DNA of 64,000 nucleotides from Candidatus Gastranaerophilales bacterium (GTDB lineage Bacteria; Cyanobacteriota; Vampirovibrionia; Gastranaerophilales; Gastranaerophilaceae). Made by a program: the position numbers and the translations under genes. The DNA is taken from contig CALUWM010000002.1 in assembly GCA_944324485.1 (NCBI GenBank), positions 1 to 64,000 of the forward strand, read 5' to 3'. The notes beneath the pieces are model-generated. The model did not search any database. It had not been told where the DNA came from and worked only from the letters and a program-made list of their open reading frames with translations. This document shows positions 37,270 to 44,888 of this stretch, piece after piece (positions within the stretch are counted from its first letter, which is position 1; every line of letters starts with the position of its first letter).

Positions 37270-38685
37270 TTACTTACTTAACAATTCTTTTAGCTCATCT
37301 GTTACAATCTGCATCGCTTTATTTACTTCAATATCTTTTTTTAATTTTTCATGCTGATACATAATTGTTGTATGGTTTTTTCTAAATTCTTTTGCCAAAT
37401 TAGGATAACTTAAATCAAGCATTTCTCTTGATAAATAAATTGCATATTTTCTGGCATTTACAACTTCTTTCGCTCTTGCAGAAGATAAAATTTCATCTTC
37501 ATCAACACAAAAATATCTTGCACAAGTTTTTAAAATATCTGAAACAGTTATCTGTTTTTTCTTATTTTTCAAATCCAAAAATTCAACAACATTTTCAATA
37601 TTCAACTCCACACCTTCAATAGAAGCTCTTGCGCTTGCTTTATTATAAGCTCCTTCTAATTCTCTTATATTTGTTGAAAATTCTTTTGCAAGAAATAAGG
37701 CGACCTCATCCGTTATTGGAAAATTTGATAAAATTGCATGACGTTTTACAATCTCCATTCTTGTTTCAAGATCAGGAATTTTAATATTTGCTTCTATTCC
37801 CCATTCAAAACGACTTCTCAATCTGTCAGGTATCAATTCAAAAGCTGACAAAGGTCTATCTGATGCAAATACAATTTGTTTTCCGGCATGATAAAGGGCA
37901 TCAAATGTATTAAAAATTTCTTCTTCAGTTCTTTTTTTACCATCTATCCACTGAATATCATCAATTAAAAGAACATCAACATTTCTGTGCATATCTCTAA
38001 ATTTACGCATTTTTTCGTTCAAATCACCTGTATTTTTACAAGTATTTAAAGACTCAATTAATTTATTTCCAAACTCTTCCGCTTTTGTATATCTAATTTT
38101 TAAATTTGGAAAATTTCTTAAAATTTTATGCCCAATAGCCTGCATTAAATGAGTTTTTCCAAGTCCCACAGAACCGGAAATAAACAACGGATTATATTTT
38201 TGTCCCGGAGCTTCCGCTATCATTTGAGCAATTTTATATGCAAATTTAGAATTTTTACCTTCAACAAAATTTTCAAAAGTATATTTTAAATTTAATCCGC
38301 AAAAAGAATGCATTTGAGAAAGATTTTCCATTTTAATTGCGGTTTTTTCGTGAGTTTTTTGCTCGGGAGTTAATTTTTGTTTTTTCTTTGCTTTAGTATT
38401 TTCATCAAGAATAAATCTGGGAGTTCTTTTTATATTTGTAGCCTGAAAAAGAGCTTCTTCAACCTCTTTTAAATGCTTCTGTTGAAGAACTTGTATACCA
38501 AAACTTTGTGAACTTTTAATTAAAAAAATCCCGTTTTCGCTTTCTTCAAATAATGGTAAAGCAGGCTCAAGAGAGTTTATCCAAGGACGAACAAAACCGG
38601 GAAGTTTCTCGGATAAAATATTTATAAAATTTTCCCAAGCTTCATTTTCTTTTTTATTTAATGAACTCGTCAAAAAAGCCACCAT
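37270..38685 (-). CDS. dnaA: Chromosomal replication initiator protein DnaA
   Basis: AAA+ ATPase that binds DnaA boxes and melts the origin. The 471 residues contain domain I (WENFINILSEKLPGF), Walker A GSVGLGKTHLMQAIGH (about 170-185), Walker B VLLIDDIQWIDG, sensor-II-region RLRSRFEWGI and the C-terminal DNA-binding helix-turn-helix ending EFRKNHTTIMYQHEKLKK. Unusually it sits next to recN, not dnaN, and no cluster of TTATCCACA boxes is seen around it, so oriC is probably elsewhere. The start (ATG at 38685) is at the end of an about 55-nt leader from a palindromic promoter shared with the divergent radical SAM gene. Confidence 0.97.
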   Translation of the reverse strand: MVAFLTSSLNKKENEAWENFINILSEKLPGFVRPWINSLEPALPLFEESENGIFLIKSSQSFGIQVLQQKHLKEVEEALFQATNIKRTPRFILDENTKAKKKQKLTPEQKTHEKTAIKMENLSQMHSFCGLNLKYTFENFVEGKNSKFAYKIAQMIAEAPGQKYNPLFISGSVGLGKTHLMQAIGHKILRNFPNLKIRYTKAEEFGNKLIESLNTCKNTGDLNEKMRKFRDMHRNVDVLLIDDIQWIDGKKRTEEEIFNTFDALYHAGKQIVFASDRPLSAFELIPDRLRSRFEWGIEANIKIPDLETRMEIVKRHAILSNFPITDEVALFLAKEFSTNIRELEGAYNKASARASIEGVELNIENVVEFLDLKNKKKQITVSDILKTCARYFCVDEDEILSSARAKEVVNARKYAIYLSREMLDLSYPNLAKEFRKNHTTIMYQHEKLKKDIEVNKAMQIVTDELKELLSK

Positions 38686-38739
38686 TCCTACATTTTAACA
38701 TCCAACCACAAAACAATGGAAAATTCTTCCATGCTTTTT

Positions 38740-38784
38740 AAAATAAATTTTACTATAAACATTAAATGTAGTAAAATTTATTTT
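38740..38784. promoter_or_regulatory. Perfectly symmetrical divergent promoter of dnaA and the radical SAM gene
   Basis: A 16-bp perfect inverted repeat (38740-38755 with 38769-38784, 13-bp centre) contains TTTACT-N17-TAAAAT on both strands: plus strand -35 at 38749-38754 and -10 at 38772-38777; minus strand -35 at 38775-38770 and -10 at 38752-38747. The right arm ends on the base before the ATG at 38785. Each strand's -35 overlaps the other's -10, so the two promoters should exclude each other. Confidence 0.75.
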
Positions 38785-39891
38785 ATGAATAAATCAGGAT
38801 TATTCGACACCTTAAGAAATTTATACAGTCTTATAAGCTATAATAATCCAATGATTAAAACAGGGCGAGCAATTTTGCCTTTAAGGTATTTTTTTGAATT
38901 AACGCACTTGTGCAACCTAAACTGCCCATATTGTTACATAGGAAAAAATCGAGCTAAAGAAGAATTAACAACAGAACAATGGCTCAGCGTTATTAATCAA
39001 ATTCCTTTTTATGGATTTATTACTCTTGTTGGCGGAGAACCGCTAATTAGAGAGGATTTTTCAGAAATTCTTTTTGCATCATCAAAAAAAACTTTCGGAA
39101 AAGTAAACATAGTAACTAATGGAACACTTTTAGATAACAAAATCGAAGATATCATCAAATCAAAAATTTTACTTTTAAGTGTTTCTTTGGATGGATGGGA
39201 TAAAAATCACGATAAATTTCGAAATAAAGACGGCATTTTTAATACAATAATCAACAATCTTTATCATTTAAATCAAGAAAGAAAAAAAGCTAAATCGAAA
39301 CTTATGATTGATATTAAAACTATTGTTTTAAATGATAACCTTGAAGATATTTTAAAATTATATGAATATGCAACAAAATCAAATTTTGAGTTTTTATCTG
39401 TTTCATTTTTAAGAAATAATAATTTAAAACAAAACGGCACATTATACAATAATTTTGATGAAATTTTCTATAAACCTGATTATCCTATAAAACAATACTT
39501 TGATATAGAAAAGTTTGAAAAAATATATTTAGAAATTCAAAAAATAAAAAAATTCTCAAAAACAAAAATACGTTTTTCGCCCAAATTTGATAACGAAAAT
39601 CCCAAAATTGAACTTAATAGTATCAAGAATTTTTTTAAAAATCCCAATAAAAATATTAAAGATATATATTTCCCATGTCTTTATCCTTATTCAAATACAA
39701 TAATAAATCCAATGGGGGATATTTACCCTTGTTTATCATATAAAATGGGTAATATAAAAGAACAAAAATTAATTGAAATAATTAATAGCTCAAAATATCG
39801 TTGTTTCAGAAAAAATTTAAAACATTCTAAAATTTTTTCATCTTGCCAAATGTGCTGTGAACTTAAAGTAAAAAATGAGGATTTAAAATGA
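38785..39891 (+). CDS. Radical SAM protein with SPASM-like C-terminus
   Basis: A 368-residue radical SAM enzyme: CNLNCPYC (Cys43, 47, 50) binds the AdoMet 4Fe-4S cluster; GGEPLIRED (about 71-79) and SVSLDGWDKNHD complete the barrel. The C-terminus has several Cys (FPCLYP, YPCLSYKMGN, SSCQMCCEL) as in SPASM domains that hold extra clusters and modify ribosomal peptides or sugars. Upstream open codons to 38716 cover the promoter, so I use the ATG at 38785, which is leaderless by promoter position. The stop overlaps the M16 peptidase start (ATGA), giving a radical SAM-peptidase pair as in PqqE/PqqF or AlbA/AlbF systems. No precursor peptide is visible. Confidence 0.88.
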   Translation: MNKSGLFDTLRNLYSLISYNNPMIKTGRAILPLRYFFELTHLCNLNCPYCYIGKNRAKEELTTEQWLSVINQIPFYGFITLVGGEPLIREDFSEILFASSKKTFGKVNIVTNGTLLDNKIEDIIKSKILLLSVSLDGWDKNHDKFRNKDGIFNTIINNLYHLNQERKKAKSKLMIDIKTIVLNDNLEDILKLYEYATKSNFEFLSVSFLRNNNLKQNGTLYNNFDEIFYKPDYPIKQYFDIEKFEKIYLEIQKIKKFSKTKIRFSPKFDNENPKIELNSIKNFFKNPNKNIKDIYFPCLYPYSNTIINPMGDIYPCLSYKMGNIKEQKLIEIINSSKYRCFRKNLKHSKIFSSCQMCCELKVKNEDLK

Positions 39892-42497
39892 AAAAACTAA
39901 TCAGTGCACTAACAATTATAACTCTTTCAATAGGAACGGTTTTCGCTCTTGAAGAGGGAATGAGTATAACAACCTTGCCAACAGGTCAAAAAGTTGTAAT
40001 CAAAGAAGTAAAAGATAACAATATTGTAAAAATTGACACTTGGATAAATACAGGCTCAATTAATGAAGATGAAAAAACATCAGGAATAAGCCACTTTTTA
40101 GAGCATCTATTCTTTAAGGGTACTCAAAAATATCCCACAGGAACTATGGATAAAATTCTTGACTCCAAAGGTGCAATAGTAAATGCAGGAACCAGTAAAG
40201 ATTTCACTCATTACTATATCCAAATTCCTTCCAAAGACTTTGATTTAGCGCTAGAACTGCATGCTGATATGCTTTTAAATCCTATGATTCCAAGAAAAGA
40301 ACTTGAACGCGAACGTCCGGTTGTTATCGAAGAAATCTCCAAAACAAAAGACAGTCCTTCAAACAGACTCTTTGATAACATATATAAAGCTTTATATACC
40401 AAATCAAATCATCCATACAAAAGAAATGTAATAGGCAATAAAGAGATAATTCAAAATGTAACAAGAGAAGAAATACTTGATTATTATAAAAAATTCTATA
40501 CTCCTGATGCTTTTACAACAGTGATTGTAGGCGATGTTAATAAAGAAGATGCCCTAAATAAAGTTGCCAAAGCTTTTTCATCTAATCAAAAAAATAAACA
40601 AGTTAAAATAAAATATCCAAAAATAAAACCCCTAGATAAAATAGAACGCATAGAAGATACAATGGATATTAACAAAAGTCATATGATGATTGCTTTTTTA
40701 GCGCCAAAATTTTCAAATGCAAAAGATAACTATGCCCTTGATGTACTTACAACTATGTTATCTTCCGGAAAAAGCTCAATTCTAAACCAAAACTTAAAAG
40801 AAAACAAACAGCTCGTTTTATCAATCTCATCAGGCAATTACTCACAAAAAGATTCAGGTATGTTATATATATACGGGACTTTTGAGCCTGAAAAGGAAAA
40901 ACTGGTTGAAAATGAAATAATTTCAGAATTGAAAAAAATTCAAGAAGGACAATTCAACGATTCGCAAATCGAGAAAGCCAAAAACACAATTAAAACAGAT
41001 ACTTATTACTCAAGAGAATCAATTTCTAATATATCAGATGATTTAGGATACGACTTTACTTTCGCTAATGATGATACATACTACGAAAATTATCTTAAAA
41101 ACATAGAAAAAGTAACAAAAAAAGACGTAATCGATGTTGCAAAAAAATATCTGACATTAGATAAATACGCTATTTCTGTTGTTAAACCAACTAATTTTAA
41201 AGAAATATCAAATACTAAACCTCAAGAAATTAAAAAACAAGATAAACTTTTAGAACAAAAAGGAAACGAAAAAAAGGTTCTTCTAAAAAACGGGGCAACC
41301 TTGATAACCAAAAAGAAAACAACAAATTCAATTATTGCAATAGATATTACAATAAAAGGTTCAAAGGCGCTTGAAAAAAAACCATCAAGTGCAATGCTTG
41401 CCGCATTAAGCGCCACAACAGGAACGCAAAATTATACAAATGCAGAATTTGCAAATTTTCTTGATGAAAACGGAATAAAATTAGGGCTCAGCTCCACAAA
41501 TGATGTTTTTGCAATAGTAATACAAACAACCAAAGATAACTTGGATAATGCCCTAAAAGCTTTAGATGAAGTGATTAATAAACCTGTTTTTTCAGATTAT
41601 GAAATTAAAAAAATTAAAGAAAGAAAAATCCAAGAATTAAAAGGAATTTCAGACAATCCTTCTTCTTTTGTTTTTGATGAATTTAGAAAACTGGCATTCT
41701 TAAATTCAATATACGGACAAAATTCAGAATTCATTTTAAAAAACATAAACAACGTTTCAAGAGATGATATTGTTGAATTTTATTCAAAAATAATAAATCC
41801 TGAAAATATGTCTATAAGCGTGGTTGGAGACATTAATGAAGATTTTATTTCAGAAAAATTAAATTCTATAATTAAAGAAAATCCAAATGGGGTAAAATTT
41901 TCATTTTCAAATGTTAAATACTCTCCGTATCACCCGACAAAAAATATTGAAACCACACTCTATAAAAACGAAGTTCAAGCAAATTGGATGGCTTTAGGGT
42001 ATAAAATATGCGGAGTTTTGAACAGAAAAGATATAGCAACTTTAAGTGTTATTAATTCCATATTAGGAGAAGGTATGTCCTCGAGGCTATTTACAAAGCT
42101 AAGAGAAGAAAAAGGGCTTGCATATACAGTAGGCTCAAGTCTTATGACAAATGTTTTAGACGGAGCTTTTGTAGCATATATAGGCACAAATGAAAACAGT
42201 ATCAATGAAGCTAAAAAAGGCATTTTAGAAGAATTTGAAACAATTAAAACAGAAATGGTAACAACAGAAGAATTAAATAATGCAAAAGATAAACTTTTAG
42301 GAAAATTTCTGCTTTCAATCGAAACAAATATGGATGAAGCCGATTTATTAAGCTGGTATAGTGCTTTAGGTCGTGATTTAAACGCATTTAATGAATATAA
42401 GGAAATGATTAAAAACGTTACACAAAATGATATAATTGAAACCGCCAATAAATACTTTTCAAAACCATACATATACACTGTGGTCAAACAAAAATAA
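39888..42497 (+). CDS. Exported M16 (insulinase-family) zinc peptidase, double module
   Basis: An 869-residue protein with a Sec signal (MKKLISALTIITLSIGTVFA) and two M16 halves. The first has the inverted zinc motif HFLEH (69-73) with downstream glutamates (ELERERPVVIEEISK near 135-149); the second half (from about 455) lacks it, as in the usual active/inactive pairing. The fold encloses small peptides or unfolded substrates of up to a few kDa. It should act in the periplasm. Translation is coupled to the radical SAM gene by an ATGA overlap, so the pair may mature or degrade a modified peptide, which is inference. Confidence 0.9.
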   Translation: MKKLISALTIITLSIGTVFALEEGMSITTLPTGQKVVIKEVKDNNIVKIDTWINTGSINEDEKTSGISHFLEHLFFKGTQKYPTGTMDKILDSKGAIVNAGTSKDFTHYYIQIPSKDFDLALELHADMLLNPMIPRKELERERPVVIEEISKTKDSPSNRLFDNIYKALYTKSNHPYKRNVIGNKEIIQNVTREEILDYYKKFYTPDAFTTVIVGDVNKEDALNKVAKAFSSNQKNKQVKIKYPKIKPLDKIERIEDTMDINKSHMMIAFLAPKFSNAKDNYALDVLTTMLSSGKSSILNQNLKENKQLVLSISSGNYSQKDSGMLYIYGTFEPEKEKLVENEIISELKKIQEGQFNDSQIEKAKNTIKTDTYYSRESISNISDDLGYDFTFANDDTYYENYLKNIEKVTKKDVIDVAKKYLTLDKYAISVVKPTNFKEISNTKPQEIKKQDKLLEQKGNEKKVLLKNGATLITKKKTTNSIIAIDITIKGSKALEKKPSSAMLAALSATTGTQNYTNAEFANFLDENGIKLGLSSTNDVFAIVIQTTKDNLDNALKALDEVINKPVFSDYEIKKIKERKIQELKGISDNPSSFVFDEFRKLAFLNSIYGQNSEFILKNINNVSRDDIVEFYSKIINPENMSISVVGDINEDFISEKLNSIIKENPNGVKFSFSNVKYSPYHPTKNIETTLYKNEVQANWMALGYKICGVLNRKDIATLSVINSILGEGMSSRLFTKLREEKGLAYTVGSSLMTNVLDGAFVAYIGTNENSINEAKKGILEEFETIKTEMVTTEELNNAKDKLLGKFLLSIETNMDEADLLSWYSALGRDLNAFNEYKEMIKNVTQNDIIETANKYFSKPYIYTVVKQK

Positions 42498-42624: not shown

Positions 42625-43425
42625 TCATTTAATATATGAAATAAGACTTGTTTTTGTAAAATCTAAATTAGCAATTTTACTTAAAGCTCTTTTTTCTATT
42701 TGTCTTATACATTCTTTTGTGACTCCATAACTATTACCAATTTCTTCAAGAGTCTTTTTTGCTTGATTTTCTAAACCAAATCTTAAAACAATAACATTCT
42801 TTTCTTTTTCTTTAAGGTTATTAAGAGCAATTTTAATATCTTTTTTAAGCTCCAAATCAATTACATCTCTTTCAACATTTTGTTTTTCATCTTCTATTAT
42901 TTCAGCTAAAGTAAGTTCTTTATTATCAGTCATTGCAACACCTGATTCAATAGAAAGAGCTTTAGTATATACATTTAAAAAAGTATCAATTTTTTCTTCA
43001 GTCATATTTAATTTTTCCGCTACATCTTTTTTAGAAACCTCTTTTTGAACCGATTGTTCCATTTCTTGTTTTGTTTTTTTATACCTTGAGAGAGTTTCTT
43101 GAATATATACAGGAATATTTACCGCATAACTTTGTTCAGAAATTGCTTTAAACATAGCTTGTTTAACCCACCAAGTTGCATAAGTTGAAAACTTATATCC
43201 TAACGAAGGATTGAATTTTTCTATTGCAACAACTAATCCAAAAATTCCTTCTTGTACTAAATCAGAATTTGAAAGACAAGAAGAAGTTATGGATTTTGCT
43301 GCAATTTTTTTAATTAAAGAAATATTATTTTCTATTATTTTATTTCTTGCAAAAACATCACCATTTTTTGCTCTTAAGATAAGCGCTGTTTCATTTTCAA
43401 ATTCATTTTCAATTTTTTTCAACAT
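42625..43425 (-). CDS. Alternative sigma-70-family RNA polymerase sigma factor
   Basis: A 266-residue sigma factor. Region 2 is well kept: LVQEGIFGLVVAIEKFNPSLGYKFSTYATWWVKQAM (about 56-91); region 3 follows (IPVYIQETLSRYKK), and region 4 has LRFGLENQAKKTLEEIGNSYGVTKECIRQIEKRAL near the end. It lacks the long acidic N-terminus of the neighbouring principal factor, so it looks like a group 2/3 paralogue. GAGG lies 7 nt before the ATG. Downstream of rpoD on the same strand but separated by about 400 bp. It may serve stress or developmental promoters; nothing shows which. Confidence 0.88.
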   Translation of the reverse strand: MLKKIENEFENETALILRAKNGDVFARNKIIENNISLIKKIAAKSITSSCLSNSDLVQEGIFGLVVAIEKFNPSLGYKFSTYATWWVKQAMFKAISEQSYAVNIPVYIQETLSRYKKTKQEMEQSVQKEVSKKDVAEKLNMTEEKIDTFLNVYTKALSIESGVAMTDNKELTLAEIIEDEKQNVERDVIDLELKKDIKIALNNLKEKEKNVIVLRFGLENQAKKTLEEIGNSYGVTKECIRQIEKRALSKIANLDFTKTSLISYIK

Positions 43426-43831: not shown

Positions 43832-44842
43832 CTAATCTAGGCCTATGTAATTTTTCAAATTAACAGAAAGATTTTTATTCCTGCATAATTTCTTCAATTT
43901 AGCTATTGCTCTTGTTTCAATTTGTCTTATTCTTTCTCTTGAAACTCCGTAACGTGATCCTATTTCATCAAGCGTCTTTTTTTGTCCGTTATTATCAAGC
44001 CCATATCGCATAATCAAGACATCTTTTTCTTTAGGATTGAGTTGATTTAGCATTTTTTGCACATCCTCAAGCAAATTTTCTTGCGTTACTTTTGTATCAG
44101 GGGTAAGATGTGTATCATCTACAATAAAATCAGCAATTTTAGATGTGTCATCTTTTTGGTTTGCGGGTGTTTCTATCGAAATAGTACTTTGTGAGCTTTT
44201 CATTAACGCAACAAGTTTTGATATAGGCATATCAACTCTTTTTGCTATTTCTTCCTTGGTTGGAACACGATTTAATTCAGTAGATAATTCAATAGTAGCT
44301 CTTTTAATTCTGCTTAAAGTTTCAATCATATGAACCGGCAATCTTATCATTCTTGATTTATCCGCAATTCCTCTTGTTATTGCTTGTTGAATCCACCAAG
44401 TAGCATATGTTGAAAACTTATAGCCTTTTGAATAATCAAACTTTTCAGCAGCTTTCATAAGCCCCAAATTACCTTCTTGAATCAAATCAAGAAATGAAAG
44501 CCCTCTGCCTATATATTTTTTTGCAATAGAAACAACCAGTCTTAAATTAGCATTAATTAATATTTCTCTTGCTTTTTGAGAATGATTTTCTTTTATTTGC
44601 CTAGCAATTTCCAACTCATCTTCAAAACTTAAAAGGGGAATTTTACCTATTTGTTGAAGATAAATTTTAACAGAATCATCGGCAACAATAGATTTATAAT
44701 CTTCATGATTTTTTGAAGAATCTTCATCATCTTCTTCTTTATTTTGAATATCGTTATCAATTTCTAAAAGAGTTTCTTCGTCTAAATCATCATATAAAAA
44801 ATCTTCTTGAACCTTCTTTTCTTCTTTAGTTTTTTGTTTCAT
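43832..44842 (-). CDS. rpoD: Principal RNA polymerase sigma factor (RpoD/SigA-type)
   Basis: A 336-residue sigma-70: an acidic N-terminal stretch, region 1.2 (DDSVKIYLQQIGKIPLLSFEDE), region 2 (NLRLVVSIAKKYIGRGL, DLIQEGNLGLMKAAEKFDY, FSTYATWWIQQAITRGIAD), region 3 (RLPVHMIETLSRIKR) and region 4 (LNPKEKDVLIMRYGLD, TLDEIGSRYGVSRERIRQIETRAI). It matches the primary factor group, although region 1.1 is replaced by a short Asp/Glu-rich segment. I use ATG 44842, which has TTGGAG 6 nt upstream, rather than the TTG at 44860. A TATAAT near 44865-44870 is the likely -10. Confidence 0.92.
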   Translation of the reverse strand: MKQKTKEEKKVQEDFLYDDLDEETLLEIDNDIQNKEEDDEDSSKNHEDYKSIVADDSVKIYLQQIGKIPLLSFEDELEIARQIKENHSQKAREILINANLRLVVSIAKKYIGRGLSFLDLIQEGNLGLMKAAEKFDYSKGYKFSTYATWWIQQAITRGIADKSRMIRLPVHMIETLSRIKRATIELSTELNRVPTKEEIAKRVDMPISKLVALMKSSQSTISIETPANQKDDTSKIADFIVDDTHLTPDTKVTQENLLEDVQKMLNQLNPKEKDVLIMRYGLDNNGQKKTLDEIGSRYGVSRERIRQIETRAIAKLKKLCRNKNLSVNLKNYIGLD

Positions 44843-44888
44843 TTCAATCTCCAAAGACAACGCTATTATACATTATTTTTTGATTTTC

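Follow-up and report, generated by a model that had tools for sequence, protein, structure and literature searches.

A mirror-symmetric repeat between dnaA and a radical-SAM gene as a probable pair of interlocked divergent promoters in Candidatus Gastranaerophilales

In an uncultured gut bacterium related to cyanobacteria (a MAG, Candidatus Gastranaerophilales, Melainabacteria), the short stretch of DNA between dnaA and a divergent radical-SAM gene holds a long perfect inverted repeat. The question is what this symmetry is doing beside the replication-initiator gene. It could be the operator of a regulator, a switch between two genes, an accident of AT-rich DNA, or simply what two promoters look like when they point away from each other and use the same boxes. 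We favor the last of these, and we give a probability of roughly 0.78 to the reading that the palindrome consists of two divergent housekeeping promoters (sigma-70 type) that interlock. Promoter activity and start sites are what we infer from the sequence and from its conservation in related genomes. We use "the window" for the whole stretch of DNA that was analysed, which is 64,000 nucleotides long.

The repeat and its geometry

The features that matter for the argument are these, in window coordinates.

37270 to 38673, minus strand: dnaA (TIGR00362, E=1.3e-121), with a probable TTG start at 38673-38671
38674 to 38740, minus strand: predicted dnaA leader of about 67 nt, with CATG at 38730-38733, TGGTTGGAT at 38700-38708 and AGGA at 38686-38689
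38740, minus strand: predicted dnaA transcription start, the seventh base after TAAAAT, placed from the position of the -10 box
38739 to 38785, no strand: perfect inverted repeat with 17-nt arms and a 13-nt spacer, in the dnaA / radical-SAM intergenic region
38747 to 38755, no strand: left core arm ATTTTACTA, read as the dnaA -10 box TAAAAT (minus strand, 38752-38747) and the radical-SAM -35 box TTTACT (plus strand, 38749-38754)
38769 to 38777, no strand: right core arm TAGTAAAAT, read as the radical-SAM -10 box TAAAAT (plus strand, 38772-38777) and the dnaA -35 box TTTACT (minus strand, 38775-38770)
38784 to 38785, plus strand: predicted radical-SAM transcription start, at the ATG or one base before it, placed from the position of the -10 box
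38785 to 39891, plus strand: radical SAM/SPASM protein gene, 368 aa (Pfam PF04055, E=1.2e-21; PF13186, E=8e-13)
39888 to 42497, plus strand: two-domain M16 peptidase homologue, 869 aa (PF05193, PF00675)

Sequence analysis of the window gave two arms, 38739-38755 and 38769-38785, which are 17 nt each and 100% complementary. The original prediction had described a 16-bp perfect inverted repeat at 38740-38784, and we confirmed it as the inner part of this longer repeat. We also found, as had been claimed, exact matches to TTTACT-N17-TAAAAT on both strands (38749-38777 on the plus strand and 38747-38775 on the minus strand, an offset of 2 bp), with the -35 box of each strand lying over the -10 box of the other. 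The two -10 hexamers are separated by 19 bp, and about 45 bp lie between the predicted starts at 38740 (-) and 38784/38785 (+).

We compared both the arms and the boxes with what chance would give. A one-step Markov model of the window's composition predicts about 0.03 inverted repeats per 64 kb with arms of at least 16 and a loop of at most 14. In 849 kb of the real genome there are 19 whose arms reach this length, three of them inside the window, so long arms are unusual, not unique. Promoter-like hexamer pairs in the window were not above chance (29 found vs 31.7 expected in the promoter scan with a shuffled control), and a generic scan for promoters and terminators, which showed no excess over shuffles, was not used as evidence. 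Genome-wide, TTTACT-N17-TAAAAT with at most one mismatch was not enriched (157 matches vs 202 for the reversed control), and a scan of TTTAC-N-GTAAA spacings in 459 kb had no peak at 17. Because hexamer matches are at chance level in such AT-rich DNA, we placed the weight of the evidence on conservation.

Conservation and the two predicted transcripts

We searched 58 genomes for the core, the comparison set being 27 further genomes of the same genus and 30 more distant ones. The intergenic DNA at dnaA was compared at 27 congeneric loci, including that of the window, and the divergent neighbour was identified at each. The exact core, ATTTTACTA-N13-TAGTAAAAT with no mismatch, was present at dnaA in ten of the 58 genomes, and among these ten the identity of DnaA to the window's protein falls as low as about 75%. 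Both core arms are invariant at all ten shared loci. At nine of them dnaA faces the radical-SAM gene, whose ATG stands 6–7 nt past the TAAAAT of the right arm; at the tenth, in G022, an M16 peptidase gene takes the place of the radical-SAM gene. The only exact core away from dnaA in the 58 genomes lies between divergent cysS and purA genes, in G009.

For comparison we took the 15 other dnaA loci that had an alignable promoter and no abutting radical-SAM or M16 gene. Perfect 9-bp symmetry was found at 10/10 loci with the abutting divergent gene vs 1/15 of these (Fisher p=3.4e-6, shared ancestry ignored), and the single symmetrical case has 9-bp arms with different letters at their inner ends, ATTTTACTC/GAGTAAAAT. 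The arm that serves as the dnaA -10 box is near-invariant in all 15 (GTAAAAT, with the G in 13 and TAGAAT once). The opposite arm, on the -35 side of dnaA, fares differently: TTTAC stands at exactly 17 nt in eight of the 15 and is absent from that position in the other seven. The AT that precedes TTTACT is retained in the shared loci and often lost in the others.

Not all of the repeat is held in this way. The symmetry of the outer 7–8 bp is perfect only in the window's genome and in G001 and breaks down in close relatives that share the gene order. Conservation in such relatives was a check attached to the original prediction, and it holds for the inner 9-bp arms, exact in ten genomes, and fails for the outer symmetry. 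Only the inner 9 bp of each arm appear to be under visible constraint, and the promoter-pair reading does not account for the exact symmetry further out in the window's genome.

The pairing is not conserved across the genus: most members either lack the radical-SAM gene or carry it at another place, and their dnaA lies beside different genes. On the DnaA tree, which has an unresolved backbone, the loci that share the radical-SAM gene need three changes and fall into two supported clades plus one isolated genome. G005 (L007) is an example of a genome where the radical-SAM gene is farther from dnaA: a TATAAT of its own precedes the gene's ATG by 7 nt, and the palindrome is lost, yet TTTACC-N17-TAAAAT is kept for dnaA. 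We considered and rejected an origin of the right arm in the 3' end of recN (a TAGTAAAATAGTTA match in G019), as TAATAAAATAG is what sister genomes carry, and recN elsewhere natively ends in FAKTL(I/V)K.

If the promoters work as we read them, each 9-bp arm would do double duty, supplying a -10 box (TAAAAT) to one strand and a -35 box (TTTACT) to the other. A polymerase heading for dnaA would take the left arm as its -10 and the right arm as its -35, and would produce a leader of about 67 nt ahead of a TTG start. A polymerase in the opposite orientation would swap the roles of the arms, and the radical-SAM mRNA would begin at the ATG or one base before it. The symmetry would arise as a side effect, since both promoters would use complementary boxes, spaced by the usual 16–17 bp, in one shared stretch; it would persist where a divergent gene needs it and would decay on that side where none does. 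As AGTAAA is the complement of TTTACT, dnaA boxes spaced by 17 bp already supply most of a promoter for the other direction, and the extra need would be the AT before TTTACT. The symmetrical divergent promoter pair of the original prediction is supported by the exact 9-bp arms in ten genomes and by the spacing of the radical-SAM -10 box. TTTACT is an imperfect -35 box, and because of this and of the seven other loci without TTTAC at 17 nt, we propose that dnaA may rely mainly on its -10 region (TTTNNNGTAAAAT).

The start of dnaA itself needed some attention. There is an in-frame ATG at 38685, 12 nt upstream of the TTG at 38673. Many relatives have no in-frame dnaA ATG, yet they keep an AGGA- or GGGA-like site upstream of the TTG, and their conserved TTG aligns with codon 5 of the dnaA ORF in the window. 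The start is probably the TTG at 38673, common to the genus, rather than the ATG. The earlier claim of a dnaA transcript beginning about 55 nt before the gene therefore needs an adjustment: the predicted leader is about 67 nt to the TTG instead of 55 to the ATG. We rejected a second, leaderless dnaA promoter with a TAAAAT 6 nt before the ATG at 38685, as that box is not conserved and the ATG is probably not the start.

In most members of the genus the dnaA leader carries two motifs, a CATG that follows the -10 box by 12–15 nt and a TGGTTRGAY ahead of the ribosome site. These leader elements could possibly regulate dnaA at the RNA level or through the early transcript. The CATG brings in an upstream AUG, and the short ORF that begins there is not conserved. 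A 5' hairpin is predicted in many of the leaders and is weak when compared with shuffles (mean z -1.3 over 18 leaders). No DnaA boxes were found near the promoter (TTATNCACA occurs twice in the window, which is below chance), and the Rfam search of the window found only a tRNA.

On the other side, the radical-SAM -10 box lies 7 nt before the ATG in the window and there is no Shine-Dalgarno site. In most of the genus a TATAAT or TAAAAT is found 6–7 nt before this ATG wherever the gene sits, and genomes that carry it after recN or other genes have TATAAT at 6 nt; in members of other genera the spacing is not consistent. Among 701 genes in 849 kb of the window's genome, 65 have a TATAAT-like hexamer 6 nt before the start codon vs about 11 per neighbouring position, and a further 19 have a -10-like box at 7 nt. 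This sharp peak at 6 nt is the expected signature of leaderless mRNAs. High fractions of leaderless mRNAs have been reported for Cyanobacteria, Bacteroidetes and Deinococcus-Thermus (PMC5397173), and the radical-SAM gene resembles them in having its -10 box directly upstream of the start codon, which is positional evidence. A leaderless radical-SAM transcript is well supported by this spacing, both within the genus and genome-wide, and we agree with the original prediction that it would start at the ATG. Our literature search found no paper on leaderless transcripts in Melainabacteria, and none on Melainabacteria promoters was among the matches listed. Leaderless genes appear common in the window's genome, G000, with about one gene in eight (84/701) having a -10-like box 6–7 nt upstream.

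The radical-SAM protein did not reach any NCBIfam equivalog cut-off in the profile search. The start of the M16 gene overlaps the radical-SAM stop, and the two are presumed to be on the same transcript. The best NCBIfam match of the M16 homologue is YfmF/YfmH, below the cut-off; it resembles a fusion of YfmH- and YfmF-like halves, which are EF-P modification-associated proteins. After the M16 gene there are two sigma-70 family genes on the minus strand (42625-43425 and 43832-44860), one without a region 1.2 match and the other RpoD-like.

Sister elements and competing explanations

We searched the 27 congeneric genomes for ATTTTAC-N14..20-GTAAAAT and found 81 matches vs 26 for the reversed control. 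The excess comes mainly from three orthologous divergent regions, which are dnaA, spoIID-murJ vs an MFS transporter, and cysS vs purA; the spacing signal is seen only with 7-bp arms and in orthologous intergenic regions. On this evidence the dnaA element belongs to a small class in the genus. In the spoIID region one gene (spoIID) starts 6–8 nt from its TAAAAT and its partner has a leader, while cysS starts 6 nt from its box in some genomes and 18 in others, with purA at about 34. There is also a near-symmetrical site between an HD/GAF-domain gene and polA, and there are single matches in other divergent pairs (L129, L133). Among the matches inspected, the recurrent non-coding ones lie between divergent genes, and several sampled non-recurrent ones lie inside genes. 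The spacing among the sister elements varies from 16 to 19. Two one-mismatch symmetric matches, C1:100519 and C5:24824, were discarded as they are inside ORFs.

Because the sister elements have unrelated functions on both sides, they favor a promoter architecture over a pathway-specific operator. We can imagine a genus-wide class of mirror-symmetric promoters (arm as -10 and -35, one side leaderless and the other with a leader) that locks genes into a reciprocal ratio to their divergent neighbours, through polymerase orientation alone or through a shared factor that binds ATTTTAC/GTAAAAT, and that covers the core functions dnaA, cysS/purA, spoIID-murJ and possibly polA; we consider this joint idea doubtful.

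A separate element, ATTTTAC-N28-GTAAAAT, lies about 180 nt upstream of rpoB (L137 91-132, which is G000 C26:91-132, and L173, L174 and L175). It is present in many genomes of the genus, with the 28-nt spacer also conserved.

The alternative that survives best is a dimeric factor, repressing or activating both genes, with the palindrome as its operator and half-sites about 22 bp apart, or two helical turns. An inverted repeat with constant spacing is what such a factor would bind, and the related palindromes at cysS/purA and spoIID-murJ/MFS, with the near-match at polA, could form a small regulon. The conserved spacer of the spoIID/MFS element also fits an operator and counts against our reading. 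This palindrome, ATTTTACAATTAAAAATTATTAATGTAAAAT at L138 3768-3798 (G000 C8:8767-8797), is conserved through the spacer in nearly all of the congeneric genomes searched, which is more than two plain promoters would need, and the promoter architecture does not account for it. However, a site that controls dnaA should be kept regardless of the neighbouring gene, and we see the opposite: where no divergent gene abuts, the palindrome decays (it is lost at 14 of the 15 comparable dnaA loci) and the dnaA -10 arm stays. The spacing of the sister elements varies as -35/-10 spacing may and as a dimer site rarely does, and the position of the inspected recurrent matches between divergent genes also speaks against it. 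We believe that a dedicated operator is unlikely, and the earlier suggestion of a repressor operator is not borne out.

A deliberate switch is less probable still, and we regard it as quite unlikely. The original prediction held that RNA polymerase could occupy only one direction at a time, making dnaA expression mutually exclusive with that of the radical-SAM/M16 operon. Such a switch would couple replication initiation to the radical-SAM/M16 pathway. With predicted starts about 45 bp apart, the polymerase footprints would overlap almost wholly, and from their size it is geometrically likely that two polymerases are unable to bind together. The steric part of the claim stands on this geometry; a consequence for expression is not supported. 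In plasmid pLS20, a switch does arise from overlapping promoters that differ in strength, given a regulator (PMC4207663), but no regulator gene adjoins our site and most of the genus lacks the gene pairing. Five bidirectional promoters have been assayed in E. coli, and their basal activity did not reach a level at which the two directions would compete (PMC12825309). We see no support for regulatory coupling between dnaA and the radical-SAM gene, and our findings do not show replication coupled to the radical-SAM pathway.

A chance coincidence around one ordinary dnaA promoter is very improbable: the AT content of 71%, the lack of enrichment of promoter-like matches and the unconserved outer arms would suit it, but the 18 positions of the core do not vary among ten genomes and the leaderless spacing is kept as well, so a chance origin is largely refuted for the 9-bp core and likely for the outer 7–8 bp.

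Relation to known divergent promoters

The interlocked promoters would fall in the broad class of overlapping divergent promoters, as they share base pairs, lie between divergent genes and have conserved boxes. In bio and Tn10 tet, the divergent promoters overlap and the palindrome is the repressor site. The dnaA site is like them in having back-to-back promoters in a compact palindromic region, and unlike them in that its conserved arms coincide with the promoter boxes themselves.

The bidirectional promoters of Warman and Grainger have starts 7–25 bp apart and reciprocally overlapping -10 elements (PMC10268837). The strands share one -10, and start distances of 10, 18 or 23 bp are the commonest (PMC12825309, PMC10268837). 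As in those promoters, a short symmetrical element between divergent genes would serve polymerase both ways, with simultaneous binding sterically barred. The dnaA / radical-SAM site lies outside their definition because the predicted starts are about 45 bp apart, and it differs in having separate -10 boxes, each overlaid on the other -35.

The Pc/Pr promoters of plasmid pLS20 are overlapping divergent core promoters of sigma-A type with a TTTACA -35 box, and the available text of that report describes unequal strengths and a regulator with DNA looping and contains no description of mirror-image sharing of -35 and -10 boxes (PMC4207663). As far as that text goes, the likeness is in the two oppositely directed overlapping promoters, which are predicted in our case. 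Unlike pLS20, the dnaA / radical-SAM site has no evident regulator or operator.

If our reading is true, this would be a compact form of divergent promoter beyond the shared -10 type that is being catalogued in E. coli and Salmonella, and it would occur at the replication-initiator gene. One 9-bp word would be a -10 in one direction and a -35 in the other, and divergent genes could be packed into about 100 bp, one of them leaderless. Natural variation in the genus, where the arm has been kept or lost or the gene has moved, amounts to a ready-made mutant series.

We also observed a pair of divergent genes at L034 8381-8417 whose start codons are 36 nt apart, each with a TATAAT 6 nt before the ATG. 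From the position of these boxes it reads as a very compact leaderless divergent pair.
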